This document shows positions 29,019 to 62,995 of a stretch of 64,000 bases of DNA, one piece after another. The DNA is from Fibrobacter sp. UWEL (lineage in GTDB: Bacteria > Fibrobacterota > Fibrobacteria > Fibrobacterales > Fibrobacteraceae). The notes below the pieces were generated by a model, which saw only the letters and a list, made by a program, of their open reading frames with translations, made no database searches and was not told where the DNA came from. The DNA lies in assembly GCF_900142535.1 (NCBI RefSeq), contig NZ_FRBE01000001.1, positions 62,001-126,000 on the forward strand, given 5' to 3'. Both the position numbers and the translations under genes were made by a program. Position 1 is the first letter of the stretch. Every line of letters starts with the position of its first letter.

Positions 29019-30338
29019 GTGTTTTCCAATTTATGGAAAAATTTTGGCTTGAAAGAACTGGGTGCGGCACTCTTGCTGTCCCTTGCTCCCTTGCATGCGG
29101 CTGACGAACCTTCCAAAAATGAATCTGCTGGGGCTTGCGCTGAAGGGACCCTGCTTACAGGTATCGTCCTGAGTGGTTTGGAACATACTAACGAGCGTGT
29201 GGTTCGGCGAGAGCTTGTAAACCAGGTAGGGGAGGCCTACTCCTCCGAAAAGTTCGTTTCCGAAAAGCGTAAGCTGGAAGATCTGGACTTGTTCACCGAT
29301 GTTCAGTTCAGCTGCGATGCCCAGGGCGTTGCCCATTACCAGTTTAAGGAAATTTTCCGCTGGATTCCTTCTCCGGCGGGGAAGTCTACGGACCGCGATG
29401 GCCTCATGATTGGCCTGGCACTGGCTAACTTGAATGTGCTGGGTGAGGATATTCGCGCCGAAGTGCAGTATCGTACCGCCGTGTCTCCTTTCCTTAAGAA
29501 CAATGAGTATGCGTTCTATTCCAGTTCTCCTTACCTGTTTGGCTTGCCCTTAGGATGGAATTTTGAATTTCTCCGTACGGACAGCTGGGATGACCTGAGA
29601 AATTTCAATGATGCAAGCTGGTTGCTGGATCTGGACCTGGACTGGAAAATTACGTCCCACTTGTCCCTCCTGATTTCCGGTGCTTACCGCTATCTGGAAG
29701 AGGGCCCGGGACATCTGCCGGAAGCTGGCATTGGCTTTGTCTTCGATTATCGTGACGCTTCTCTGGATACTCGCAAGGGCGTGTATCTGGAGTACATGCT
29801 GACTCATGTAGGTGCAGGTGGCTTCGATCATGATGCAGAACATCTGGGCGGTGAAAACTACTGGGAACTCCTGACGGATGCACGAGCCTTCTATACTGCC
29901 TGGCGCTTTATTACAGGTGCGACAGCCTTGGTTCGTTTCCGTCCTGGCGATGTGGAACGTTATGATTTCTTCTATCATGGCGGGGCCAATACATTCCGCG
30001 GTCGTGAATCCAATGGAGACCGTCTGGGAGTCCATGAGGCTTTGCTCACGCTGGAAGAACGCTTTGTCCTGCGAGAACGTAAGGCGGCCTCCCTCGGGGG
30101 AATTAACTTCTTCTATGGTCTGCAGCTGGTGGCGGGTCTGGATGGAAGTCTATTGTGGGATAAGGGCGCTCCTGGCTGGGATAATTACGAGGGCGCCGTC
30201 TATGGCGGGCTCCACATTGTGATTCCCGCTCTGGACCGTGTGCGATTTGAAGTAGGCTACAGCCCCGACCGCGGGGAACCGGTATTCCACTTCGGCCTCT
30301 TTGACAAGACAGTCTCCGCTCGCTGGCGCAACCGGTAG
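29019..30338 (+). CDS. Omp85/BamA-TamA-like outer-membrane protein with one POTRA domain
   Basis: A 439-residue protein starting with GTG, chosen because GGAGG lies 5 nt before it and no ATG is in frame nearby. A signal peptide (about 1-28, ending LHAAD) leads into a POTRA-like domain (about 45-115: GIVLSGLEHTNERVVRREL..GEAYSSEKFVSEKRKLEDLDLFTDVQF) and then a beta-barrel of amphipathic strands with F.GRESNGDRLGVHEALLTLEERFVL, comparable to the conserved R-rich strand (VRGY) of Omp85 proteins. It probably inserts or exports proteins or lipids at the outer membrane. Shorter than BamA (five POTRAs), so it is a specialised relative. Confidence 0.75.
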   Translation: MFSNLWKNFGLKELGAALLLSLAPLHAADEPSKNESAGACAEGTLLTGIVLSGLEHTNERVVRRELVNQVGEAYSSEKFVSEKRKLEDLDLFTDVQFSCDAQGVAHYQFKEIFRWIPSPAGKSTDRDGLMIGLALANLNVLGEDIRAEVQYRTAVSPFLKNNEYAFYSSSPYLFGLPLGWNFEFLRTDSWDDLRNFNDASWLLDLDLDWKITSHLSLLISGAYRYLEEGPGHLPEAGIGFVFDYRDASLDTRKGVYLEYMLTHVGAGGFDHDAEHLGGENYWELLTDARAFYTAWRFITGATALVRFRPGDVERYDFFYHGGANTFRGRESNGDRLGVHEALLTLEERFVLRERKAASLGGINFFYGLQLVAGLDGSLLWDKGAPGWDNYEGAVYGGLHIVIPALDRVRFEVGYSPDRGEPVFHFGLFDKTVSARWRNR

Positions 30339-30340
30339 TA

Positions 30341-30579
30341 GTTATGAATTACGAATTATGAATTATGAATTATGAATTACGAAATCGTATCTCATAACTC
30401 ATATCTCATAACTCATATCTCATATCTCATATCTCATATCTCATAACTCATATCTCGTATCTCATAACTCATATCTCATAACTCATATCTCATATCTCAT
30501 AACTCATATCTCATAACTCATATCTCGTATCTCATATCTCGTATCTCGTATCTCATATCTCATAATTCGTATCTCGTAA
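30341..30579. repeat. 239-bp array of 7-bp units in two opposed orientations
   Basis: This fills the 339-nt gene-free stretch between the Omp85-like gene and ppa. From 30341 to about 30384 the units are ATGAATT/ACGAATT; from there to 30579 they are the opposite orientation, ATCTCAT, AACTCAT, ATCTCGT and AATTCGT, about 28 units. The consensus is A(A/T)(C/T)TC(A/G)T. The two halves can pair as a long imperfect hairpin. Nothing in the stretch codes for protein. 30580-30677 holds only an AT-rich region and the ppa ribosome binding site. Confidence 0.9.
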
Positions 30580-30677
30580 GTGAAAGTCCTTGACTTTCTG
30601 TAAATAAATGCTAAATTTTTATTACATATACTGAATAATCATAAAATCACGGGCTCGTGGGAGCTCGAGGAGAAATA

Positions 30678-40822: not shown

Positions 40823-41734
40823 ATGATTAAGTCTTTAATGAATGCTTTAAATGGGGTCCTGCTGGGTAAGCAGGATACTGTAGAACTTTTGATCATGGCA
40901 CTTCTGGCCGATGGTCATGTGCTTGTGGAAGACGTTCCTGGCACAGGCAAGACAACCTTAAGTAAGGCTCTTGCGGCCGCTTGCGGTGCTGACTTTTCCC
41001 GCATTCAGTTTACTCCCGACCTTTTGCCTGCCGATGTTACAGGTGGTGCCGTATTCAAGGCTAATACAGGCGATTTTGAAATCAAGAAGGGACCTGTCTT
41101 TACCGAAATCCTTCTGGCCGATGAAATCAATCGTGCGTCTCCTCGAACTCAGAGTTCCCTGCTGGAAGCCATGGAAGAACGCCAGGTTTCCCTGGAAGGT
41201 GAACGCCATAAACTGCCGGATCTTTTCATGGTGCTGGCAACGGAAAATCCGGTGGAATTCCACGGGGTGTTCCCTCTGCCGGAAGCCCAGATGGACCGCT
41301 TTATGATTCGTATTTCCGTTGGGTATCCTACAGCGGAGACTGAACTGGATATTTTACGTTCCCATCGTGTGGGCCGCCCCATCGATAAGGTAACCGCGGT
41401 GACGACTCCCGATGAAATTCTTGCCGCACGTAAGAAGGTTGCCGCAGTTCATATCGAGGAATCTCTGGAACGCTACATTGTGGCGCTGGTGCAGGCCACC
41501 CGAAATGACGGGGGCGTTCGTCTTGCAGCAAGCCCTCGTGCTGGTATCAACCTGGTGCGTATGGCACAGGCCTGCGCCTTTATTCAGGGTAGGGACTTTG
41601 TCAATCCCGATGACATCCAGCGGGTGTTCTTCCCGGTGATGGAACATCGCGTTTTCCCGAAGGATAGCGCAAGTCCTGACGCGTCCCGAAATATCCTGAA
41701 GAATATCTTGAAGAACGTAAGCATCCCTAGATAA
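40823..41734 (+). CDS. MoxR-type AAA+ ATPase
   Basis: A 303-residue MoxR ATPase, a chaperone-like AAA+ protein. Walker A is DVPGTGKTTLSKALA (about 36-50), Walker B LADEINRASPRTQSSLLEAMEE (about 97-118), sensor 1 VLATENPVEFHGVFPLPEAQMDRF (about 134-157). MoxR proteins mature or activate partner proteins, often with DUF58 and von Willebrand/transglutaminase proteins, as encoded by the next two genes. This trio recurs across bacteria, but its client is seldom known. The first gene of the operon. Confidence 0.9.
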   Translation: MIKSLMNALNGVLLGKQDTVELLIMALLADGHVLVEDVPGTGKTTLSKALAAACGADFSRIQFTPDLLPADVTGGAVFKANTGDFEIKKGPVFTEILLADEINRASPRTQSSLLEAMEERQVSLEGERHKLPDLFMVLATENPVEFHGVFPLPEAQMDRFMIRISVGYPTAETELDILRSHRVGRPIDKVTAVTTPDEILAARKKVAAVHIEESLERYIVALVQATRNDGGVRLAASPRAGINLVRMAQACAFIQGRDFVNPDDIQRVFFPVMEHRVFPKDSASPDASRNILKNILKNVSIPR

Positions 41735-41749
41735 CCAAACTCACCCCAC

Positions 41750-41776
41750 GTCATCCTGAGCATCGCGAAGGATCCA
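41750..41776 (+). repeat. Dispersed GTCATCCTGAGC...GAAGGATC element between moxR and DUF58 gene
   Basis: One copy of the element that is dense in the tetrapyrrole cluster. Its AAGGA (41768-41772) lies 9 nt before the ATG of the DUF58 gene and probably acts as that gene's ribosome binding site. Confidence 0.8.
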
Positions 41777-50287: not shown

Positions 50288-51460
50288 ATGATCAGTATTA
50301 CCAAGCTTTTGATGGACGCTCCTAACTATGGAGATCAACTTCGTTACACTCCCAAGGCTCACGAATCCAAGAACGGCGTTTCCGAAGGTCGTGGCCCGGT
50401 GGTGGTGTGGAACTGCACCAAGACCTGCAACCTGAAGTGCGTTCACTGCTATGCACGTTCCGAAGCCATCAAGTATCAGAACGAACTGACTCACGAAGAA
50501 GGCTTGGCCCTCATTGATCAGCTGGCGGAATTCAATGTTCCCGTGATTTTGTTCAGCGGTGGCGAACCGCTGCTCCGTCCGGATTTCTTTGAACTGGCAA
50601 ACTATGCCGCCAGCAAGGGCATTCGCCCCACCATTTCTACCAACGGTACCTGCATTACTCCGGAAGTGGCTCAAAAGCTGAAGGATATGGGCGTTGGCTA
50701 TGTAGGTATTAGCCTGGATGGTAACGAAGCTACTCACGACAAGTTCCGCGGTAAGGAAGGTGCTTACCAGCTGGCTATTCGCGGTATCCGTAACTGCGTT
50801 GCTACTGGCCAGAAGGTGGGTCTGCGCTTTACCATTACTAAGGATAACTTCCGCGACCTCAATTCCATCTTCGACCTGATCGAAGCGGAAAATATCGATC
50901 GCGCCTGCTTCTACCATCTAGTGTATAGCGGTCGCGGCAGTGGCATTGTGGATCACGACCTGACTCACGAAGAAAGCCGCGAAGTGATGGACTTGATTAT
51001 CGATCGCGTTCTGGACTTCAAGAAGCGTGGCCTGAACAAGGAAATCTTGACGGTGGATAACCACGCTGACGCAGTGTACCTGTACCAGCGCATGAAGCGT
51101 GAAGATCCTGAACGTGCCAAGAAAATTCTGGAATTGATCCAGAGCAATGGCGGTAACCGCAGTGGCATGGCCTTCGGTAACATCGACAGTATTGGTAACG
51201 TTCATCCCGACCAGTTCACTCAGTACATTACCTTGGGTAACGTTCGTGAACGTAAGTTCGGCGATATCTGGACGGATGAATCTAATCCCATTATGGCAGG
51301 CCTCAAGAACCGCAAGCCTCTCCTGAAGGGTCGTTGCCCCAAGTGCCAGTTCCTGAACCTGTGTAACGGAAACTTCCGCACCCGCGCCGAAGCCGTCACT
51401 GGCGACTTCTGGGAAATGGACCCCGCCTGCTACCTGACCGACGACGAAGTCGTTATTTAA
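50288..51460 (+). CDS. ahbC: 12,18-didecarboxysiroheme deacetylase (radical SAM)
   Basis: A 390-residue radical SAM enzyme of the siroheme-dependent heme route, expected to remove the two acetate groups of 12,18-didecarboxysiroheme to give iron-coproporphyrin III. The family opening ISITKLL..APNYGDQLRY and VVVWNCTKTCNLKCVHCYA (CxxxCxxC at Cys 47, 51, 54) are clear, as are SGGEPLLRPD, a C-terminal cysteine set (CPKCQFLNLCNG) and the closing DPACYLTDDEV that mark AhbC/NirJ proteins. It overlaps the fused ahbA-ahbB gene by 1 nt. NirJ of heme d1 synthesis is the close alternative, but no other nir genes are present. Confidence 0.85.
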   Translation: MISITKLLMDAPNYGDQLRYTPKAHESKNGVSEGRGPVVVWNCTKTCNLKCVHCYARSEAIKYQNELTHEEGLALIDQLAEFNVPVILFSGGEPLLRPDFFELANYAASKGIRPTISTNGTCITPEVAQKLKDMGVGYVGISLDGNEATHDKFRGKEGAYQLAIRGIRNCVATGQKVGLRFTITKDNFRDLNSIFDLIEAENIDRACFYHLVYSGRGSGIVDHDLTHEESREVMDLIIDRVLDFKKRGLNKEILTVDNHADAVYLYQRMKREDPERAKKILELIQSNGGNRSGMAFGNIDSIGNVHPDQFTQYITLGNVRERKFGDIWTDESNPIMAGLKNRKPLLKGRCPKCQFLNLCNGNFRTRAEAVTGDFWEMDPACYLTDDEVVI

Positions 51461-52560
51461 TGACGGAATTCGAACTTCAAATTCTTGACATCGTCCAGGA
51501 CGGCTTTCCCATAGTGGAACGTCCTTATGCGGCTATTGCAGAGATTTATCGCGATCGTTATGGACATACGCCGGGTTCTGTGCAATCTCTCGCATGTCAT
51601 TCTGAGCGAAGCGTAAGCGAAGTCGAAGAATCTTGCTTTGCCGAACAGCAAGTTTTTGAGGCTGTCGAAAGCTTGCGCAATGAAGGTGTGATTCGTCGTC
51701 TTGGTGGCGTGTACGACACGAAGCGTCTTGGCTTGGTAAGCCGCCTGTGTGCTGGCAAAGTTCCTAGCGTCGCCACTGGTGCCGCTGACGATTCTGCCTT
51801 GGAGCAGTTTGCTGCAACGGTCATGGATATTCCGGCCATTACCCACAATTACGTTCGCTCTCACGAATACAACGTGTGGTTTACCGTCATCGCCGAAAGT
51901 GAAACTGCGCTCCAGTCCATTATAGAAAAGCTTTGTGCAGAAACCGCCCTTCACGATACACATGCCATGCCTGCGTTGAAGATGTTCAAGATCAATACGG
52001 TCATGAGTGTCATTGAAGGCCGAAAGGCAAATGTTCAGAACTCTCCCTCCGTCATTCTGAGCGGAGCGAAGAACCTAGAAAGTCTTTCCGAATTTGATAA
52101 GGCCCGCATTCGCTTGCTTAGCGGAAACATTCCTCATTCTCTGACTCCTTTTACAGATTTATTTCAAAGTGTCATTCACAGCGGCGCAAAGACTCTAGAA
52201 GAAGTTCTTGTTTCCGCAAATGAGGATTTAGCATCTAAACGTATGAGGCGTTTTGGTGCAGTTCTTCGCCATCAGAATGCGGGCTTCCCCTGCAACGCTA
52301 TGGTGTGTTTTGATGCTGGGGAGAACGCCGCTGATGCCGGTGCAAAACTTGCGGCTAACCCTCATGTTTCTCATTGCTATGAAAGGCCTCCTTTTGAAGG
52401 TTTTTCCTATAACGTCTACGGGATGTTCCACGCCCAGAGTGAAGAGGAGTTGAACGGCTTTGTGCATGAGGCTGTGGAAACGCTTGGAAACCCGCGGTTT
52501 GCGGTTCTTCATTCCCTGCGGGAATTAAAGAAAACCAGCTATCAATATTTCGCTGGGTAG
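51460..52560 (+). CDS. ahbAB: Fused siroheme decarboxylase AhbA-AhbB with in-frame repeat insertions
   Basis: A 366-residue protein with two Lrp/AsnC-like halves. The first (about 1-185) has a winged helix ending RNEGVIRRLGGVYDTKRLGL and HNYVRSHEYNVWFTVIAES; the second (about 207-366) has KRMRRFGAVLRHQNAGFPCNAMVCF and YERPPFEGFSYNVYGMFHA. These correspond to AhbA and AhbB, which together decarboxylate siroheme at C12 and C18. In most species they are separate genes. Three repeat-derived peptides are inserted in frame: CHSERSVSEVEES (about 46-58) before the recognition helix, VILSGAKNLE (about 198-207) at the junction of the halves, and VIHSGAKTLE (about 238-247). The frame stays open, so the protein is probably made. 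Translation is coupled to ahbC. Confidence 0.82.
   Translation: MTEFELQILDIVQDGFPIVERPYAAIAEIYRDRYGHTPGSVQSLACHSERSVSEVEESCFAEQQVFEAVESLRNEGVIRRLGGVYDTKRLGLVSRLCAGKVPSVATGAADDSALEQFAATVMDIPAITHNYVRSHEYNVWFTVIAESETALQSIIEKLCAETALHDTHAMPALKMFKINTVMSVIEGRKANVQNSPSVILSGAKNLESLSEFDKARIRLLSGNIPHSLTPFTDLFQSVIHSGAKTLEEVLVSANEDLASKRMRRFGAVLRHQNAGFPCNAMVCFDAGENAADAGAKLAANPHVSHCYERPPFEGFSYNVYGMFHAQSEEELNGFVHEAVETLGNPRFAVLHSLRELKKTSYQYFAG
51595..51633 (+). repeat. In-frame dispersed repeat in ahbAB, copy 1
   Basis: GTCATTCTGAGC...GTCGAAGAATCT with an internal duplication (GCGAAGCGTAAGCGAAG). Read in the frame that gives CHSER..VEES. Confidence 0.85.
52051..52080 (+). repeat. In-frame dispersed repeat in ahbAB, copy 2
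   Basis: GTCATTCTGAGC...GAAGAACCTAGAA at the joint of the AhbA and AhbB halves, read in a second frame as VILSGAKNLE. Confidence 0.8.
52171..52200 (+). repeat. Degenerate in-frame repeat in ahbAB, copy 3
   Basis: GTCATTCACAGCGGCGCAAAG..CTAGAA, a diverged copy (VIHSGAKTLE) in the same frame as copy 2. Confidence 0.6.
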
Positions 52561-52581
52561 AAAAGCAGAATATTAAATTTC

Positions 52582-52589
52582 TACATTTG
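52582..52589 (+). promoter_or_regulatory. TACATTTG box 4 nt before hemA start
   Basis: TACATTTG ends 4 nt before the hemA ATG, in the 33-nt gap after ahbAB. No Shine-Dalgarno sequence is visible, so hemA may be transcribed leaderless as well as by read-through. Confidence 0.5.
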
Positions 52590-52593
52590 GGCC

Positions 52594-53883
52594 ATGCGAA
52601 AAATCTACATGGCAGGAATGAATCATAAGATGGCGGAAATTGCCATCCGTGAAAAGTTTTATATCCCGATGGATGTAAAGACGGAGGCTCTGCAGAACCG
52701 TCCCTTTGATGAACTTTTGATTCTTGCCACCTGTAATCGCACTGAAGTTTATGCCGCTTCCGACCGAGCCCTGGAAGAGGACGAATTGGTTCGCTATGTT
52801 TGCGGCCTTGCTCACCAGAGCTACGATGATTTCGCCCAGTTTTTTTATTGTTCCGAAGGCGAAGCCGTCGTTCAACACGTAATGAACGTTTGTGCGGGGT
52901 TGGATTCCGTTGCTGTAGGGGAGGATCAGATCCTTCATCAGATTGGGCGTGCATACGAAACCGCTCATCAGCTGAATGCCACAGGCAATAGCCTGAATAA
53001 ACTTTTCCAGGGCGCCATTCATACCACCAAACGCATCAAGACGGAAACCAACCTGAGCAAACTCAGTTGCAACATTCCGTTCCTTGCCATGAAGCAGGTG
53101 CAGAAGACTTTTGACGATCTGGAAAATCGTTCGGTCTATATTGTGGGACTTGGTGAAATGGGTTCCCTGATGTTGAAATACGTTCAGGAAAATACCACCA
53201 AGATTTTTGCCTCCAGCCGTACATTTGCTAACGCGGAAAAGTACGCGGACGTCTTGACTCCGGTTCCTTTCGAGGACCGCTATAGCGTTATGGGTAAGGC
53301 GGATGTCATGATTCTTTGCACCGCCTGCCAGGAACCCATTGTGACGAAAGAGGCCTACGAGGCAGTTTTGCCTGCAGACTGTTATCCTGAGCGAATACCC
53401 GCATGTCATCCTGAGCAAGCGAAGCGCGTCGAAGGATCTAGCCTCCGCTTGGTCATAGACTTGGGTAATCCTCGAAATGCGGAGCCTTCCGTAGGGAATA
53501 TTCCCGGCGTGCAGTATGTTTGCGTGGACAATCTGGAAAAGATTGTTTCTGAAAATCGTCGTCTTCGCCTGATTGAACTGGAAGCGGCCCAGAAGATTCT
53601 CCAGGAAGGAATTGATGAATTCCTCCAGTGGTATCGTATGGATGAAGTGGCCAAGCAAGTCAACATCCAGGCTGAAAAGATGATGCAGATGGCTGAGGCT
53701 GAATCAGAAAAACTGGTTCGTTCCTTGCAGGACATTTCCGCAGAAGACCGCGATCGCATCCAGATGATGTTTGAACGTTTCGCCAAGAAAATGGCCAGCG
53801 AATACCTCTATAAGGTGAAGGATAAGAATACTCCCGAAGATGTTCAGAAGTATTTGGAATGCCTTGGCAGAGTGTCATCCTGA
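52594..53883 (+). CDS. hemA: Glutamyl-tRNA reductase with in-frame repeat insertion
   Basis: A 429-residue enzyme that reduces Glu-tRNA to glutamate-1-semialdehyde, the first step of C5 tetrapyrrole synthesis. MAGMNHKMAEIAIREKF, the active-site LATCNRTEVYA (Cys 47), GEDQILHQIG, YIVGLGEMG (NADPH site) and the C-terminal dimerisation helices are typical. Residues about 263-282 (YPERIPACHPEQAKRVEGSS) come from a full and a partial copy of the dispersed repeat, placed just before the strand LVIDLGNPR, a loop in known structures. The last residues and the stop codon come from another copy at 53874. HemL, the next enzyme, is not in the window. Confidence 0.93.
   Translation: MRKIYMAGMNHKMAEIAIREKFYIPMDVKTEALQNRPFDELLILATCNRTEVYAASDRALEEDELVRYVCGLAHQSYDDFAQFFYCSEGEAVVQHVMNVCAGLDSVAVGEDQILHQIGRAYETAHQLNATGNSLNKLFQGAIHTTKRIKTETNLSKLSCNIPFLAMKQVQKTFDDLENRSVYIVGLGEMGSLMLKYVQENTTKIFASSRTFANAEKYADVLTPVPFEDRYSVMGKADVMILCTACQEPIVTKEAYEAVLPADCYPERIPACHPEQAKRVEGSSLRLVIDLGNPRNAEPSVGNIPGVQYVCVDNLEKIVSENRRLRLIELEAAQKILQEGIDEFLQWYRMDEVAKQVNIQAEKMMQMAEAESEKLVRSLQDISAEDRDRIQMMFERFAKKMASEYLYKVKDKNTPEDVQKYLECLGRVSS
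53381..53439 (+). repeat. In-frame dispersed repeats inside hemA
   Basis: A partial copy (GTTATCCTGAGCG, from 53381) and a full copy (GTCATCCTGAGCAAGCGAAG...GTCGAAGGATCT, 53405-53439) in the CHPE reading frame. Confidence 0.85.
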
Positions 53884-53900
53884 GCGAAGTCGAAGGATCT
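53874..53900 (+). repeat. Dispersed repeat spanning hemA stop and hemC ribosome binding site
   Basis: GTCATCC-TGA-GCGAAG...GAAGGATCT: the element's TGA (53881-53883) ends hemA, and its AAGGA (53893-53897) lies 6 nt before the hemC ATG, serving as a probable Shine-Dalgarno sequence. Confidence 0.85.
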
Positions 53901-53903
53901 AAA

Positions 53904-54860
53904 ATGAAATTAAGAATTGCAACTCGAAAAAGTGCTTTAGCTCTGGCTCAGACTACTCAGGCCGCCGATGAAATCGTTGCCGTGAATCGTTCCTTGGACG
54001 GAGCCTGCGCTGACCTCACCTATGAACTAGTGTCCATGACCACAGAGGGCGACCGTCGTCTGGACAAGTCCCTGGCAAGTTTTGGCGGTAAGGGTGTATT
54101 CATCAAGGAACTTGAAGTTGCTCTTTTGGAAGGTCGTGCCGATATTGCTATCCATAGCTTAAAGGATATGCCCGCGGAAGTGCTGCCCCAGTTTAAGCTG
54201 GCTGCGGTTCTCAAGCGCGAAGACCCGCGAGATGCATTTTTGGCACGGGGCGGTAAAGACGGAGTCCGCTTTATGGACCTGCCCGCAGGAGCGAAGGTGG
54301 GTACCGGAAGCATTCGCCGTGTGGTCCAACTGAAGGCTTTGCGTCCCGATTTGGAATACGTTCCTATTCGTGGTAACATCCAGACTCGCATTTCAAAACT
54401 TGCTGAGTTGGATGGTGTAGTTCTTGCCGCAGCGGGTCTGAACCGTATGGGCCTTGCGGATCAGGTGACAGAATATTTTGATACAGACAAGATGCTTCCC
54501 GCCAGCGGTCAGGGCATTCTCGCTATTGAAACCCTCAAGGATTACGCGGCATCAATTCTCTCCCGCGTGAACCACGTTCCTACCTACTGCATTGCTGTTG
54601 CTGAAATGGCATTCCTGAAGGCTTTGGATGCGGGCTGTCAGTTCCCGGTGGCAAGCTTTGCGGAGTTTGAGGCGGGGACGGAAACTGCCTGCGGCAATTC
54701 TAGCGTCTTGAAAATCCGCGGTATTTACTGGGACGAATCTAGTCAGCGTCTTCTAAAAGCTGAAGATTCTATTTCCCTGGATTTGTCTGCTGAAACGGCC
54801 TTGCAGAACGCAAAATCATTAGGCGTCTCATTAGCTGAAAAAATCAAATCCCAGCTTTAA
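53904..54860 (+). CDS. hemC: Porphobilinogen deaminase (hydroxymethylbilane synthase)
   Basis: A 318-residue enzyme that joins four porphobilinogens into hydroxymethylbilane. LRIATRKSALALAQT at the N-terminus, FIKELEVALLEGRADIAIHSLKDMPAE (in parts, about 70-95), GTGSIRRVVQL, and ALDAGCQFPVASFA (about 239-252), whose Cys holds the dipyrromethane cofactor, are diagnostic. ATG 53904 is chosen because AAGGA from the dispersed repeat lies at good spacing and an upstream in-frame ATG (53859) would start inside hemA. A bidirectional terminator follows. Confidence 0.93.
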   Translation: MKLRIATRKSALALAQTTQAADEIVAVNRSLDGACADLTYELVSMTTEGDRRLDKSLASFGGKGVFIKELEVALLEGRADIAIHSLKDMPAEVLPQFKLAAVLKREDPRDAFLARGGKDGVRFMDLPAGAKVGTGSIRRVVQLKALRPDLEYVPIRGNIQTRISKLAELDGVVLAAAGLNRMGLADQVTEYFDTDKMLPASGQGILAIETLKDYAASILSRVNHVPTYCIAVAEMAFLKALDAGCQFPVASFAEFEAGTETACGNSSVLKIRGIYWDESSQRLLKAEDSISLDLSAETALQNAKSLGVSLAEKIKSQL

Positions 54861-54864
54861 TAAA

Positions 54865-54895
54865 AAAGGCTTCTACTTTTGTAGAAGCCTTTCTC
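54865..54895. terminator. Bidirectional terminator after hemC
   Basis: AAAGGCTTCTAC / GTAGAAGCCTTT hairpin flanked by A- and T-runs, between hemC (+) and the fibro-slime gene (-). Confidence 0.85.
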
Positions 54896-54905
54896 TTGTT
54901 GCGTC

Positions 54906-56495
54906 TTATTTGTAACAGGGAATTTGACAAACAGGTTCACCTTCCTTGGCGTCGGTGGATAATTCGCCGGGGGCAAAGCTGCTGTAGTATTCGTAGAGAT
55001 TTTCTTCCTTCAGGTTAGAATCGCTTTGGCTAGGCTTTCCGATAAGGTTTACCTTTGAAATAGAACTGCGAATCTTGAAGTTGGAACCATCGGACTGGCG
55101 TTCTGCATGGAAGAAGTGTATGTAATGAACACTACTGTCTTTCCACGCACCCTTTTCGTCGACCTTTGTGACGCAAGAATCCAGCATGGGGTCACCTTCG
55201 TGGCATCCGTGTGAATTCACTGCCAGATAGTCCATGCGGATGGTTCCGGTGGCAGGGAGATGAGTTCCGCCCAGATCTACGGCAAGAACGCCGTCAACGA
55301 AAATCCACATATCGTCATCGCCTGTGAACTGGAATATTTCGTTCGCATCCTTGTGATATTCAAAGGGGATGAAGCCCATGATGGTGAAGCCGTAGTTACG
55401 TAAATGGCTTATTCCAAAAGGAGATGTCATCGCTGCTTTAAAGGCCGCATCTTTATTTTTGGGGCCTCCATTGGTTTGCCAGAACTTACAAAGATCTGAT
55501 GTACTTTTTCCTAAGAAATCCGTTTGAGAGGATGCGTACAGATAATTGTAGGGTGGACAGTTAATAGAAAGGGATTGAGGACCATATTGGTCTAAGCCGG
55601 GTTTAGATTCGATAAAATAAAAGTTTCCATCGTCTGAAACAGAATCCAGAGGGAAGAAACCTCCGTTATTCCAGTCCTTGCGAATCTCAACATATTTGGG
55701 GTCTAATGCAGACTGGCTTAAAACCATCGTGGTATTGGAACTCTTGTTGACGGATCCTTCATCGTGGAACCAATGATCAAAATATTCATTGTCGCAGGCA
55801 AGACGATTCCTTTCGATTTCAGGGCTGTAAAAATCAATTTCACCGTCTTCACTGTGCTTAAATTGCAACTGCTGCTTGACCATACCTGGTGTGATATAGA
55901 CCGGTTTGGACCAAACGTGAACTTGGCAAATCTTGGAACAGGATTTCTCGCTATCGGGAGCGGAGATGTCCCAGGATTCCGCATTATCGGAACACAACTC
56001 CGCCGCTGAACCGCGCATTTTTTCTAAACCAAGAGGGTTTAATTCGGGATCTTGAGTGCATCGGGCAAATTCGCCATACCATGCGTACCCTTGTGCAGAA
56101 CTGATGTTTGCGAGGTAGGCGGGAAGGGTTGTTGTTGCTCCGGATGGGGTCATGATTTCCTTGGGATATCCTTCAGAACCCATTGCCAAACCAAGTGCAG
56201 GTGATTGGACACTGCCGCATCCGTAGGTTGTATTGTCGTTTCGACGGCCTAACCACTCCGCATTTCCTAGATAAGAATCTAGCCATGTGTTGATTCCAAA
56301 TCTTTCGTCTTTACCCATGCTGACTAAAGCTTCTTCCGTGAAGTTCTCGAAGTCCGGATGATTGACTTCAAAATCTCTGATGATGATGTCAAACTCCTGA
56401 TCAGTATCGTTTGTTACGATTGCCAAAGGTGTTTTTTTGGAAAGATTCTTACTTGCTTGTGCGTAGGGGAATGTCTCGGAATTGTATGGTAGCAA
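54906..56495 (-). pseudogene. Fibro-slime-domain protein, apparently lacking its 5' end
   Basis: The reading frame encodes a fibro-slime domain: FDIIIRDFEVNHPDFENF, long Cys-containing loops, FEYHKDANEIFQFTGDDDMWIFVDGVLAVDLGG (in parts) and HFFHAERQSDGSNFKIRSSIS, a PA14-like fold found in Fibrobacter and slime-mould surface proteins. The domain looks complete, but no signal peptide and no ATG occur between 56318 and the divergent cobA-hemD gene; the open frame simply runs on antisense into cobA. A TTG at 56495 with AAGG upstream is the best in-frame start. I infer a 5'-truncated gene trapped between hemC and cobA-hemD; an undetected unusual start is the alternative. Confidence 0.55.
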
Positions 56496-56548
56496 TTCTA
56501 GACCTTGAGCACATGCTTGGTCCTTGGACGCGCTTGTGGACTTTTTTC

Positions 56549-56556
56549 TAAATTTC
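56549..56556 (+). promoter_or_regulatory. TAAATTTC box before cobA-hemD
   Basis: TAAATTTC fits TAnnTTT[G/C] and ends 8 nt before the ATG at 56565. It would give the cobA-hemD/cbiX-met8/hemB genes their own promoter after the hemC terminator. Confidence 0.4.
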
Positions 56557-56564
56557 GTCGTGAA

Positions 56565-58211
56565 ATGAAGAATTACGGCAAAGTTTACTTGATTGGTGCT
56601 GGTCCTGGTGATCCGGGGTTGTTCACCCTGAAGGGCAAGGCTATTTTGGAAAAGGCTGAGGTGGTTGTCTATGACCGCCTGGTTTCTCCTGCGATTTTGG
56701 CCATGTGCAATGATAAGGCGCAAATGGTGGATGTGGGCAAGATGCCGACCCATCACAAGGTGAAACAGTCAGAGATTAATAAACTGCTGGTGAAGTTCGC
56801 CCAGGAAAATCCGGGTGCGACCATCGCACGTTTGAAGGGTGGCGATCCCTTTGTGTTTGGCCGTGGCGGCGAAGAATGTTTGGAACTGGTGGAAGCCGGC
56901 GTCGAATTCGAAGTAGTGCCTGGTGTAACCGCTGGAATCTCTGTGCCGGCCTATGCAGGAATTCCCGTGACCCATCGTGGAGTTGCCACAAGCTTGCATA
57001 TTATCACCGGACATGAAAAAGATGAGAGACTTGCTTGTCATCCTGAGCAAGCGCAGAATAATGCGTGTCATCCTGAGCAAGCGAAGCGCGTCGAAGGATC
57101 TTCTGTCTCGGGCTTGGATTTTCCGGCTCTTGCCAAGTGCCCGGGGACCTTGGTGTTCTACATGGGCATTTCCAACATGGATTTTATTGCCCGCCGTCTT
57201 ATGGAATGTGGCAAGGATCCTAAGACCCCTCTGGCATTTATTGAAAAGGGTACCACTCCTTACCAGCGTACTGTTTCCTGTACCTTGGAAACTGCGGGGG
57301 AGACTATCGTCCGTGAAAAAGTGGTTGCTCCGGCTATCACCATTATGGGTGATGTTGTTGAACTGGGCTCCTCCTTGGCTTGGCGCAAGAATCTGCCGCT
57401 GTCTGGCAAACGTTTGGTTATTACTCGCGCCGCAAAACAGGCTGGCGGTATTGCTTCGAAACTGAGTGCACTGGGCGCCGAAGTCATCGAAACCCCCATG
57501 ATTGAAACTGCCACATGTCATCCTGTAGTCTCCATATGTCATCCTGAGCGCAGCGCGCAGCGCGAAGTCGAAGGATCTAGCAGAGTGGATTTCGCAGATC
57601 TCGCAAACTTCGATATCCTGGCATTCACCAGCACCAACGGGGTGGATTCTTTCTTTGAATCTTTGTTCAAGGCCGGCTTGGATATTCGTGTCCTTGCTGG
57701 AAAGAAGATTGCAAGTGTTGGTAAGATTACCGAAAAGAAATTGCTGGAACGTGGCATTCGCTGCGATTACGTTCCTGAAGACCATACCGGCGAAGGCCTG
57801 GGTAAACTCCTCGCTGAAAAGTGTGGCGACGCAAGAATCCTCCTCCTTCAGGGCAATCTGGCAGATGATACCTTGTTGAAACTTCTCCCGAAAGCAACTC
57901 GCTGGGTGGTATACGAGACGTTGCCTGTGGCAACAATGCCCGACTGGAAACGTGAAGCCGTTGCAACCGCCGACGCCGTTGTCTTCGCAAGCTCCAGTGC
58001 CGTGGAAAACTTTGTTAAGACTGTGGGTTGCCATTGCGAAACTGTTCTAACACAGGAATCTCGTAATTCGTATCTCATACCTCGTATCTGCTTCTCCATC
58101 GGCCGCCTTACCTCCGCCACAGCCAAGAAGTATGGTTTTGAAGTAATCGAAAGTGAAGAAACCACCATGGATTCTCTGGTGAAAAAAATCGGGGAATATT
58201 TCGCGGTATGA
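56565..58211 (+). CDS. cobA-hemD: Fused uroporphyrinogen-III methyltransferase and uroporphyrinogen-III synthase
   Basis: A 548-residue bifunctional protein. Residues 1-265 are CobA/SUMT (VYLIGAGPGDPGLFTLKG; VVYDRLVSP; GDPFVFGRGGEE; GVTAGISVPAYAGIPVTHRG), making precorrin-2 from uroporphyrinogen III; about 280-548 are HemD (LVITRAAKQAGGIASKLSALGAEVIETP; FTSTNGVDSFFE; ASVGKIT). Three stretches are repeat-derived and in frame: about 158-180 in a CobA loop (two CHPEQA units), about 318-340 after IETPMIETA in HemD (CHP.. and CHPERSA..), and ESRNSYLIPRI (about 498-508), which is the AT-rich heptamer family. All fall in loops between core elements. It overlaps the next gene by 4 nt. Confidence 0.9.
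   Translation: MKNYGKVYLIGAGPGDPGLFTLKGKAILEKAEVVVYDRLVSPAILAMCNDKAQMVDVGKMPTHHKVKQSEINKLLVKFAQENPGATIARLKGGDPFVFGRGGEECLELVEAGVEFEVVPGVTAGISVPAYAGIPVTHRGVATSLHIITGHEKDERLACHPEQAQNNACHPEQAKRVEGSSVSGLDFPALAKCPGTLVFYMGISNMDFIARRLMECGKDPKTPLAFIEKGTTPYQRTVSCTLETAGETIVREKVVAPAITIMGDVVELGSSLAWRKNLPLSGKRLVITRAAKQAGGIASKLSALGAEVIETPMIETATCHPVVSICHPERSAQREVEGSSRVDFADLANFDILAFTSTNGVDSFFESLFKAGLDIRVLAGKKIASVGKITEKKLLERGIRCDYVPEDHTGEGLGKLLAEKCGDARILLLQGNLADDTLLKLLPKATRWVVYETLPVATMPDWKREAVATADAVVFASSSAVENFVKTVGCHCETVLTQESRNSYLIPRICFSIGRLTSATAKKYGFEVIESEETTMDSLVKKIGEYFAV
57037..57101 (+). repeat. Two in-frame dispersed repeats in the CobA part
   Basis: A partial copy (57037-57055) and a full copy (57067-57101), both read as CHPEQA.., separated by AATAATGCGT. 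Confidence 0.85.
57517..57578 (+). repeat. In-frame dispersed repeats in the HemD part
   Basis: A short remnant (GTCATCCTG, 57517-57525) and a full copy with an inner duplication (CGCAGCGCGCAGCGCG; 57538-57578), in the CHPE frame. Confidence 0.85.
58056..58089 (+). repeat. AT-rich heptamer units inside hemD
   Basis: Four to five units (ATCTCGT, AATTCGT, ATCTCAT, ACCTCGT, ATCT), the same family as the array at 30341, encoding ESRNSYLIPRI in frame. Confidence 0.8.
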
Positions 58212-59182
58212 AAGTCGTCCTGATTATTGCCCATAACTGCATTCAACCCGGTGCATTCCGCGGTTTCGAGGCTGTGTTGGATGGCCTTCGCAAGAACATG
58301 CCCGGGGCGCGCATTGCAAGCACCAGCCTTGTGGATTTAGATAACGATCTTCGAGCCATCTTGCGTGAGGATGTGGAATCCGTAACTTTACTGCCGTATC
58401 TTCTTTTGAATGGCCGTCATTCCAAAGGGGATATCCCCGCCATTGTTGCTGATGCCCAGAAGGATTTCCCGCAGATTCCCATGACTCTTCTGCCGCCCTT
58501 GGGTGAATGGGATGGTTTCCCCGATATGGTGGTGAACCATGTTTGCAAGGTGAACCAGAGTGCTGAACCCCGACGTCATTCTGAGCGCCCCTCCCAATGT
58601 CATCCTGAACGTAGTGAAGGATCTCGCAGTTCCCTCTTCGCCATTGAAATGAATCTTGAGGGCAAGAACGTTCTCGTGGTTGGCGGCGGCCGCATCGCCC
58701 TCCGTAAGGTAAAAACGTTGTTACCCACAGGAGCCCACATTACCGTAGTGGCCCCGCTGTTTGATCCCGAATTCCATGCTCTTGTATCTAATAGTTCGGC
58801 AGGCTCACCAACCTTAGATAAGGTCCCTGAGCTCAGCCGAAGGGCCTGTTTCTCGTCTCTCGTTTTATTAGAACGCACTTACGAAACCTTGGATTTGCGG
58901 GGTGTTTCCATGGTGTTTATCTGCACCGACCAGCCGGCGGTAAATGCCCAGGTCAGCAATGATGCTCGTGCCCGCCGTATTTTGGTGAACAATGCCTGCG
59001 ATTATCTTGATGGTGATTTTATTGTGCCTGCCCGAATGGACTTTGGCGAAAATATCACTGTCACCGTTTCCACCCAAGGCAAGGCCCCCAGCCTAGCTAA
59101 GAAACTGAAACAGAAAATCCAAACCGACTGGTCTACAGAACTGACCCAAATCGAAAAAGAATTTATAACTCATAACTCGTAA
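58208..59182 (+). CDS. cbiX-met8: Fused CbiX-like chelatase and precorrin-2 dehydrogenase joined by a repeat-derived linker
   Basis: A 324-residue protein. Residues 1-115 resemble a short CbiX/SirB chelatase (VVLIIAHN with the active-site His, VTLLPYLLLNGRHSKGDIPAIV with the second His, and LLPPLGEWDGFP), expected to insert iron into sirohydrochlorin. About 140-324 are a Met8/CysG-N precorrin-2 dehydrogenase (MNLEGKNVLVVGGGRIALRKV; MVFICTDQPAVNAQV; GDFIVPARMDFG; STQGKAPSLAKKLK). The linker (about 122-139, RRHSERPSQCHPERSEGS) is two copies of the dispersed repeat. A further related element lies inside the Met8 part (58822). The last residues (ITHNS) and stop codon come from AT-rich heptamer units. 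Confidence 0.82.
   Translation: MKVVLIIAHNCIQPGAFRGFEAVLDGLRKNMPGARIASTSLVDLDNDLRAILREDVESVTLLPYLLLNGRHSKGDIPAIVADAQKDFPQIPMTLLPPLGEWDGFPDMVVNHVCKVNQSAEPRRHSERPSQCHPERSEGSRSSLFAIEMNLEGKNVLVVGGGRIALRKVKTLLPTGAHITVVAPLFDPEFHALVSNSSAGSPTLDKVPELSRRACFSSLVLLERTYETLDLRGVSMVFICTDQPAVNAQVSNDARARRILVNNACDYLDGDFIVPARMDFGENITVTVSTQGKAPSLAKKLKQKIQTDWSTELTQIEKEFITHNS
58575..58624 (+). repeat. Dispersed repeats forming the CbiX-Met8 linker
   Basis: A partial copy (GTCATTCTGAGCG, 58575-58587) and a full copy (GTCATCCTGAACGTAG..GAAGGATCT, 58599-58624) at the domain junction. Confidence 0.85.
58822..58846 (+). repeat. GGTCCCTGAGC...GAAGGGCC element inside Met8 part
   Basis: An imperfect palindrome (GGTCCCT ... 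AGGGCC) with the same CTGAGC and CGAAGG core as the other family; encodes VPELSRRA in a loop. Confidence 0.65.
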
Positions 59183-59222
59183 TTTATAACTCATAATTCA
59201 TCATTCATAACTCGTAACTCTT
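59162..59222. repeat. AT-rich heptamer array between met8 and hemB
   Basis: About eight units (AACTCAT, AACTCGT, AATTTAT, AATTCAT, CATTCAT) that hold the stop codon of cbiX-met8 and end directly before the hemB ATG. Confidence 0.8.
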
Positions 59223-60191
59223 ATGATCGTCCGTCCTCGTCGTTTACGCCGTAATGCCACCATCCGCAATATGATTGCGGAAACTTCCGTTTCTCCCGAT
59301 TGCCTCGTTTATCCCATGTTCGTGGTAGAAGGGGAGGGCATCAAGGAAGAAATTTCTTCCATGCCCAACCAGTACCGTTTCAGCATCGATGAATTGCTGA
59401 AGGAAATCGAAACCTTCGGACCTCTGGGTCTTAAGTCTGTGCTTCTGTTCGGCATCCCGGACCATAAGGATGAAATGGCTACGGAAGCTTATGATGAAGA
59501 CGGTATTGTGCAACGTGCAACCCGCGCCATCAAGGCCAAGTTCCCTGAAATCTATGTGATTTGCGACGTGTGCCTTTGCGAATACATGAGCCATGGTCAC
59601 TGCGGTATCATCAAGGACTGCGATGTGGATAATGACCCCACCTTGGAACTGCTGGCAAAGACTGCTGTTTCTCAGGCTTCTGCTGGTGCAGACATGGTGG
59701 CTCCCAGCGACATGATGGACGGTCACATCACCGCCATCCGTGAAGCTTTGGACGAAGCTGGTTTTACCAATACTCCCATTATGGGTTACAGCGCCAAGTT
59801 CGCCAGCGCCTACTACGGCCCCTTCCGCGATGCAGCCGACTCCGCTCCTCATTTCGGTAACCGCAAGTCTTACCAGATGGACGTTCGCAACATTCGCGAA
59901 GCCATGCACGAAGTGGAATTGGACTTGGAAGAAGGTGCAGACATTGTCATGGTGAAGCCGGGCCTTGCTTTCTTGGACGTGCTCCGCGGTGCTGCAGAAA
60001 TCAGCAACGTTCCCGTAGCTGTCTATAACGTGAGCGGTGAATACTCCATGGTCAAGGCCGCCGGTAAGATGGGCTGGATTGATGAAGACGCCATCATTCG
60101 AGAAAACATGATCGCTTTCAAGCGCGCCGGTGCCGATATCATCATCACGTATCATGCCAAGGAAATCTTGGAAAAGAATTTACTTGGGTAA
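59223..60191 (+). CDS. hemB: Porphobilinogen synthase (delta-aminolevulinate dehydratase)
   Basis: A 322-residue enzyme that condenses two 5-aminolevulinates to porphobilinogen. RPRRLRRNATIRNMIAET at the start, DVCLCEYMSHGHCG (Zn/Mg site, about 117-130), VAPSDMMDG, GYSAKFASAYYGPFRDA (Schiff-base Lys, about 187-203), and MVKPGLAFLD (second Lys) are typical. It has no repeat insertions. There is no ribosome binding site: the AT-rich heptamer array ends at the ATG, so initiation may depend on read-through from met8, 40 nt upstream. A terminator follows. Confidence 0.95.
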   Translation: MIVRPRRLRRNATIRNMIAETSVSPDCLVYPMFVVEGEGIKEEISSMPNQYRFSIDELLKEIETFGPLGLKSVLLFGIPDHKDEMATEAYDEDGIVQRATRAIKAKFPEIYVICDVCLCEYMSHGHCGIIKDCDVDNDPTLELLAKTAVSQASAGADMVAPSDMMDGHITAIREALDEAGFTNTPIMGYSAKFASAYYGPFRDAADSAPHFGNRKSYQMDVRNIREAMHEVELDLEEGADIVMVKPGLAFLDVLRGAAEISNVPVAVYNVSGEYSMVKAAGKMGWIDEDAIIRENMIAFKRAGADIIITYHAKEILEKNLLG

Positions 60192-61939: not shown

Positions 61940-62995
61940 ATGAATCGCGAAGAGTTTGCAAATCTTCTGAAAAATATTAAGAATGTACATGATAAGGGCG
62001 GAACGCCCGAGGATCTGGACGCATTCCTTCTGCCTTATGCCAACCGCAATGTTTACTTTTACAATGACGCTTGCGTCAAGAAGATCCTGGCCAGTCAGGA
62101 GAATATTCCCCTCACTGTGGATCTTGTGAACGCGTCCCTGGATTTGAAGGGGAGTGATTGTTTTGAGTGTCCTTCCCTGAGTAATCCTTATATTCCTGGG
62201 GAACTGGGTATCAAGAGTGTGGAACCGGATATTCTGCTGAGAAAGTCTCATCCTGTTTTTTGCGGGACGAAGCGGCCTGATGATGTGGTTTCTGTGGAGT
62301 TCCAGCACAATGGTGGTTCTATTTTTAGTGACCGGCTGATGCTTTACGTGGCACGCCATACCAGTCGGATGGTTGCTCCTGGTGATGTGGGGCCCCTTGA
62401 CAATCTCAATCTGATTAGTTTTCAGCATTTTGATACGTACCCTTGGGAAGTATGTCGGGACTACCGTTATACCATCAAGATGAGGACCCAGAACAATCTT
62501 GTGTATTACAATAAGCAGACTATTACTCTCGTGGAAGTGAAGAAGTTTTTGGATCATGCAGATTATTTCGTGGATGATGATAGTCGCTTGGCCCAGTGGC
62601 TTCGTGTCATTGATGCCTTGAACCGCGAAGATGATGATGCTTTTGCCAAGTATGCGGGTGACCCCATTTTCCAGGCCTTGCATAAGTCCGTCAAATTGTG
62701 TAACTTTGACAGTGGATATTTGCTCAAGGAGTCTAAGCATATGACTGACATCGCCTACGAAAAGTATATTGCTGCTGAGGAAGGCCGTGCTGAGGGCCGT
62801 GAAGCGGGCCTTGCAGAAGGTCGTGCAGAAGGTCGTGCAGAAGGTCGTGCAGAAGGTCGTGAAGCTGGTCTTGCTGAGGGGTCTGCCGCAAAAAGTCGGG
62901 AGATGGCAAAAAGGATGCTTTTGGCCCATGAACCTGAAGACAAGATTGTCGCCTACACAGGTCTTTCTGTTGAAGAGATACGTCAGATTAAGTAA
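61940..62995 (+). CDS. Rpn-family PD-(D/E)XK nuclease (putative transposase-like)
   Basis: A 351-residue protein of the recombination-promoting nuclease (Rpn) family: FYNDACVKKILASQENIPLTVDLVNASLDLK, SVEPDILLRKS, VVSVEFQHNGGSIFSDRLMLYVARHTSRMV (in parts), where D, E and Q form the PD-(D/E)XK site (D..., VEFQ). A Glu/Gly/Arg/Ala repeat follows (about 280-320) made of 12-bp tandem units, then the usual tail (MLLAHEPEDKIVAYTGLSVEEIRQIK). Rpn proteins occur in many copies and vary at the C-terminus; they are implicated in recombination or phage defence. Start codon is ATG with no clear ribosome binding site. Confidence 0.85.
   Translation: MNREEFANLLKNIKNVHDKGGTPEDLDAFLLPYANRNVYFYNDACVKKILASQENIPLTVDLVNASLDLKGSDCFECPSLSNPYIPGELGIKSVEPDILLRKSHPVFCGTKRPDDVVSVEFQHNGGSIFSDRLMLYVARHTSRMVAPGDVGPLDNLNLISFQHFDTYPWEVCRDYRYTIKMRTQNNLVYYNKQTITLVEVKKFLDHADYFVDDDSRLAQWLRVIDALNREDDDAFAKYAGDPIFQALHKSVKLCNFDSGYLLKESKHMTDIAYEKYIAAEEGRAEGREAGLAEGRAEGRAEGRAEGREAGLAEGSAAKSREMAKRMLLAHEPEDKIVAYTGLSVEEIRQIK
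62775..62890 (+). repeat. 12-bp tandem repeat inside the Rpn gene
   Basis: Units of GGTCGTGCAGAA and variants encode an EGRA/EGRE/EGLA repeat, which can change length by slippage without loss of frame. Confidence 0.85.

Follow-up and report, generated by a model that had tools for sequence, protein, structure and literature searches.

How did a single short palindrome at one gene junction of Fibrobacter sp. UWEL come to supply both the stop codon of hemA and what looks like the Shine-Dalgarno (SD) sequence of hemC, and does this arrangement reflect a function of the repeat or merely the place where one copy happened to land? The original prediction for this DNA took the former view: the element would carry a portable stop plus SD that could rewire operon translation, a view that would fall if intergenic copies elsewhere showed no preference for a distance of 5-10 nt to the next start codon. 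The stretch analysed, hereafter the window, comprises 64,000 nucleotides (C1:62001-126000) of a 3.53-Mb genome in 62 contigs; positions are numbered within it, and the hem genes and element copies placed below lie on its forward (+) strand.

The hemA/hemC junction

The two genes are hemA, encoding glutamyl-tRNA reductase (52594..53883; NCBIfam TIGR01035, E 8e-80, as well as protein alignment with relatives), and hemC, encoding hydroxymethylbilane synthase (53904..54860; TIGR00212, E 8e-87). Their junction (53874-53906) reads GTCATCCTGAGCGAAGTCGAAGGATCTAAAATG and holds the 26-nt palindromic element GTCATCCTGAGCGAAGTCGAAGGATC (53874..53899), composed of an unpaired T/C-GTC tag and the stem ATCCT/AGGAT. 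Locally, the sequence bears out what had been predicted: a TGA within the element, in its third sense frame, terminates hemA (53881..53883), and an SD-like AAGGA (53893..53897), which is the 3' stem arm, stands 6 nt ahead of the hemC ATG, so that stop and SD-like string occupy opposite arms and 20 nt separate the TGA from the ATG. Likewise, the same AAGGA (41768-41772), in the copy at 41750..41774, precedes the ATG 41782 of a gene named DUF58 by 9 nt; the name is that of the original prediction, the NCBIfam scan having given no match for that protein. This second copy gives no stop to its upstream gene, which ends at its own TAA (41732-41734).

The ATG at 53904 is the hemC start position in relatives too (MKLRIATR). 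A start at ATG 53859, with translation running across the element (MPWQSVILSEVEGSK...), is out, since relatives align only from the MKLR at 53904. The AAGGA of the element is the sole SD-like string near this start in the source genome, and hemC probably uses it as its SD.

Anatomy, reading frames and number of copies

The element is highly repeated. The window has 11 instances of GTCATYCTGA where 0.28 would be expected, and across the genome GTCATYCTGAGC marks 114 exact heads while its reversed control gives 0. A slightly looser pattern defined the 109 heads surveyed here, which took in the stretches around 91 listed matches outside the window and left out 14 further matches. The full form, 25-43 nt long, was present in 80 of these heads and reads T/C-GTC tag, AT[C/T]CT, a middle that usually contains an inner stem, AG[G/A]AT and C; the tag is TGTC in 49 full copies, CGTC in 28 and AGTC in 3, and the tail past ...GGATC is mostly TAG, TAA or CAG. 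The predicted stem begins with AT and comprises 5 bp, then an internal loop, then an inner stem of variable length.

Pairing is retained. The variable outer pair is C-G in 55 full copies and T-A in 25, never mixed, under a pattern that permitted both. Among 42-nt copies, of which 21 forms are distinct, all 105 cells of the inner stem pair, where shuffling yields 80.5 on average and at most 89; given that the copies are kin by descent, these counts speak of pairing retained and not of a number of independent events. AAGGA gives way to AAGAA in 25/80 full copies because it is a stem arm, with the compensating change opposite; AUCCU pairs with AGGAU in the arms of the hairpin. What is conserved, then, is pairing in the arms, not an SD. 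The Rfam scan of the window returned no match to a known RNA family, and among the papers listed when the literature was searched with the element's sequence, in part the top 20 of 44 and of 48 hits, none was relevant. A role as intrinsic terminator is not favoured: most copies have no T-run behind them, and separate T-run hairpins follow some (L113, L121).

In the sense direction two frames are open, giving CHPERSEGS and VILSEVEGS, and the third reads SS-stop, the stop being TGA. All 24 sense heads in called genes use the open frames (17 and 7) and none the TGA frame.

Ten of the 11 heads in the window fall in the hem/siroheme cluster at 51.6-58.6 kb. The siroheme decarboxylase ORF (51460-52560) has an in-frame copy of the TTCT/AAGAA form at 51596..51632 and one in the other open frame at 52051..52075. 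Inside hemA itself, a 3'-truncated variant head (GTTAT; 53381..53404) is followed by a full in-frame copy, CHPEQAKRVEGSS (53405..53438), in a segment that is missing or different in relatives. The uroporphyrinogen-III methyltransferase/synthase ORF (56505-58211) contains a 3'-truncated copy at 57037..57066 and full in-frame copies at 57067..57100 and 57538..57577, and the siroheme synthase N-terminal-domain ORF (58208-59182) a 3'-truncated copy (58575..58598) directly before a full in-frame one (58599..58623). The cluster (51596-58623) is thus a hot spot, with 10 heads in 7 kb, all in sense and most in-frame within genes.

Probable insertion of a dispersed repeat at the 3' end of hemA

What explanation accommodates these features best? 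With a probability of about 0.82, the junction reflects a dispersed, non-autonomous, CGTC/TGTC-tagged palindromic repeat that, in an ancestor of this Fibrobacter clade, came to lie at the 3' end of hemA by insertion. The element would have landed in its third (TGA) frame, and the native stop of hemA would have been replaced for that reason; its 3' arm, AAGGAT, would be purine-rich because it is paired with ATCCT, and the AAGGA brought to within 6 nt of the hemC start probably acts as its SD. The excess of heads over the control pattern, the compensating changes in outer and inner stem, the exclusive use of open frames within genes, the different hemA ends of element-free relatives, an AAGGA spacing close to that of random placement and the likeness to published CGTC repeats support this account, and the interrupted stem (5 bp, internal loop, inner stem) and TAG/CAG tail, unlike those of the published CGTC families discussed below, count against it. 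The insertion step is read from relatives 70-90% alike; an exact empty site in a very close strain was not seen. The repeat, we infer, spreads through a transposase acting in trans; as to the carrier, a RAYT/IS200-type transposase was not found by the Y1_Tnp (PF01797) profile, which covers one transposase family and had no match in the whole genome.

The junction shows how a REP-type palindrome can take the place of a stop codon, and perhaps of an SD as well, while the operon is spared: reading continues in two of its sense frames and ends immediately in the remaining one, and its 3' arm is purine-rich.

The same junctions were compared in relatives; of the 60 relatives sampled, 36 belong to the genus. 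The ...SS-stop end of hemA is common to the source genome and its two nearest relatives, G009 and G011. In these two, the string GTCTTCCTGATGAC stands at the hemA end and a full element follows about 36 nt further on; GTCTTCCTGATGAC may represent the decayed head of a double. In the element-free relatives hemA ends differently, overlapping or abutting hemC.

Within hemA, the linker that holds the double of the source genome (window 53381-53438; L203-L212) carries inserts that differ by species: G027, for instance, has CHSELREGS and G033 has CHSEPFGKLRAGS. It looks as though one tolerant loop had been struck by more than one family of palindromes.

Distribution across genomes and tandem doubles

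The 16-nt head GTCATYCTGAGCGNAG is present in 83 of the 168 genomes of the phylum, namely the source genome, 76 of 79 congeners and 6 genomes of two sister genera. Two further genomes, whose named loci are those of Acidobacteria and Terriglobia MAGs, carry 14 and 15 copies of it. The same element, GTCATCCTGAGCGAAGCGAAGGATCTC, was seen in Acidobacteriota genomes (L216, L219, L220), hence in another phylum, at 14-15 copies per genome.

The hemC loci of 28 relatives (L002-L030) contain 7 copies against 0.67 expected, all in sense, the relatives not being independent of one another. In other species this hemA/hemC junction is occupied by different CGTC-type palindromes, such as CGTCATTCCGCGCTTGACGCGGAATCT. 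Further CGTC/TGTC palindromes were noted at Fibrobacter hem loci, among them CGTCATTCCGC..GCGGAATCT, CGTCATTGCGAGG...GGCAATCT and TGTCATCCCCGCGAAGGCGGGGATCTC (L009, L011, L021, L023, L054, L056 and L031-L079). That such palindromes have entered the hem genes of different Fibrobacter species repeatedly and in one orientation bears on the question of how CGTC repeats spread.

Eighteen direct, same-strand doubles lie less than 60 nt apart; opposite-strand pairs are also present. The tandem doubles consist of a 3'-truncated copy and then, 21-37 nt later, a full copy (window 53381, 57037 and 58575; L112, L118, L125, L131, L137, L145, L152, L156, L161 and L164). In several of them the end of the spacer repeats a few bases flanking the first copy (tagaat, ccgag, ccctc), which suggests slippage at the hairpin.

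Orientation and a possible role in 3' untranslated regions

Could the element instead work chiefly at the RNA level, as a hairpin within 3' UTRs that stabilises the upstream message or slows its turnover, or that stalls ribosomes near the stop, a role already suggested for other REPs? Several features make this conceivable. Intergenic heads lie behind a co-oriented gene in 67 of 80 cases, most within 60 nt, and the proportion holds when each tandem group is counted as one unit (56/68); nearly half of the copies in tandem gaps (14/30) lie no more than 20 nt from the stop; stem pairing is conserved; and Di Nocera et al. (PMC3733652) lean towards a function in RNA for those REPs that are transcribed. 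However, the offsets of copies along tandem gaps are not clearly different from uniform (KS P = 0.14), and the sense bias is also seen inside genes, where a 3'-end role does not apply, so that insertion itself may cause the bias. Among 90 units genome-wide the sense bias is 18:4 within genes (18/22 in sense) and 37:7 in tandem gaps, and because it thus extends into genes, a 3'-end effect alone accounts for it poorly. Such a role is less likely than not. Replication strand as the cause of orientation is not favoured either, since a contig's minority-strand copies are still 12:4 in sense, albeit in small numbers.

Possible translational coupling of hemC to hemA

A distinct idea concerns only the hemA/hemC copy, which might be a working translational coupler: in this model AUCCU would hide AAGGA until a ribosome that terminates hemA translation at the TGA, beside the 5' arm, opened the hairpin and exposed it. 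If so, one hairpin would be both the hemA stop and the hemC SD, and hemC translation would depend on that of hemA. The placement of stop and SD-like string in opposite arms, with a stop-to-start distance of 20 nt, suits such a device. In predicted folds of 60-120 nt, moreover, the GGA of AAGGA is mostly paired, with AUCCU as its natural partner, and AAGGA becomes mostly unpaired once the stretch beneath a terminating hemA ribosome is held open. On the other hand, the short form of the hairpin is weak (-4.3 kcal/mol), and the longest fold pairs AAGGA with the interior of hemC instead of AUCCU. The nearest relatives also argue against it, as hemC in both G009 and G011 is preceded by AAGAAGG, situated downstream of the element and nearer the start, and coupling by overlap is present in element-free relatives anyway. 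Coupling at this junction is accordingly a tentative proposal, though one that could coexist with the insertion account as a local by-product.

Less probable still is the compound scenario in which a mobile palindrome made the hemA/hemC coupler and, in addition, the hem operons of Fibrobacter have been hit recurrently by distinct CGTC-type palindromes, in sense orientation, through a mechanism linked to transcription.

A portable stop plus Shine-Dalgarno sequence?

If stop and SD formed a portable unit, other copies should use them alike. Only two of the 109 surveyed heads supply the stop of the upstream gene, those at hemA and at one gene in L115. Among the 30 copies in gaps of less than 400 nt with a co-directional next gene, AAGGA falls at 5-10 nt from the start in five, namely those ahead of hemC (6 nt), DUF58 (9 nt) and genes in L143 (10 nt), L149 (8 nt) and L158 (5 nt), whereas random placement in the same gaps yields about 4 (4.1; P = 0.39). 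The test was scored at 4-11 nt, a range in which the same five copies fall as in 5-10 nt, with gene starts taken from a simple codon-usage caller and those of hemC and DUF58 set by hand. Overall, the distance from an intergenic head to the next start ranges from 3 to >1000 nt. All five SD-spaced copies have AAGGA as opposed to AAGAA, which is not significant (P ~0.14). Of 317 long genes, 130 have an SD-like 4-mer ahead of them, compared with ~14% of 15-nt stretches taken at random, and SD use in this genome is therefore moderate.

Nor do orthologous junctions demonstrate a kept SD function. At the DUF58 junction, the decayed copy of G011 has AAAGA in place of AAGGA and the gene start is retained; in G009 and G004 different copies lie at a greater distance from the start, and other relatives have none at all. 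A kept function may exist at the L149 gene, where G009 and G011 retain the element, its AAGGA 9 nt ahead of the start; most other relatives have neither the element nor a clear SD there.

The portable cassette retained for rewiring operon translation is hence very improbable: in its favour stand the hemA/hemC case, the five copies with AAGGA at 5-10 nt and the L149 gene, which keeps the element with AAGGA 8-9 nt from its start in three species, but those five are at the level of random placement, stops come from 2/109 heads, AAGAA with its compensating change replaces AAGGA in 25/80 full copies and AAGGA is gone at DUF58 in G011. Since intergenic copies show no preference for the 5-10 nt spacing, the outcome that the original prediction itself had named as contradicting it, a general stop-plus-SD role is unsupported; the anatomy that the prediction described holds at hemA/hemC, where operon translation could be rewired, and finds no support as a property of the copies at large. 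The arrangement of stop and AAGGA at this junction is an accident of position, not a general behaviour of the repeat.

Relationship to known palindromic repeats

The closest published counterparts of the inserted repeat are the CGTC-tagged palindromes described by Di Nocera, De Gregorio and Rocco (2013; PMC3733652), which have a stem with AT first, lie close to stops, include in-frame intragenic copies and have no known dedicated transposase. Like them, the Fibrobacter element has an unpaired tag, CGTC or often TGTC, at one of its ends, a stem beginning with AT, a position near the 3' end of the upstream ORF with varying distance to the downstream ORF, and in-frame copies within genes. In the Fibrobacter genome there is no match to PF01797, a profile that covers one transposase family. 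In the published families, however, stems are 8-9 bp with a loop of 4-5 nt, the tail is CCA and dimers are mostly head-to-head (PMC3733652), whereas the stem of the Fibrobacter element is interrupted and its inner hairpin variable, its tail is mostly TAG, TAA or CAG, and the doubles counted are direct and 3'-truncated, opposite-strand pairs being present too. Because stem and tail differ, the element is placed outside the four published CGTC families, as a related variant; Fibrobacter is absent from the text of that paper (PMC3733652).

Two other groups invite comparison. Rickettsia RPE-4 and RPE-6 (of CGTC type; PMC3733652) and RPE-1 are, like the Fibrobacter element, palindromes found in-frame in many unrelated proteins, but they differ in sequence and in host (Rickettsia versus Fibrobacterota), and the insertion is longer in RPE-1. 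GTAG REPs with RAYT transposases are similarly short, tagged palindromes that donate stops; their tag is GTAG as against YGTC, and they are RAYT-associated, in contrast to a genome with no Y1_Tnp (PF01797) match. GTAG repeats often give flanking ORFs a TAG stop (Di Nocera et al. 2013, PMC3733652), and stop donation by a REP is therefore already known.

Repeats of other kinds also occur in the window: arrays of 7-nt units (CTCATAA/CTCATAT and similar) lie in intergenic gaps at 30336-30600 and 59160-59245, and a 12-nt tandem repeat at 62780-62875, close to where the ORF at 61940-62995 ends, encodes EGRA-type repeats.
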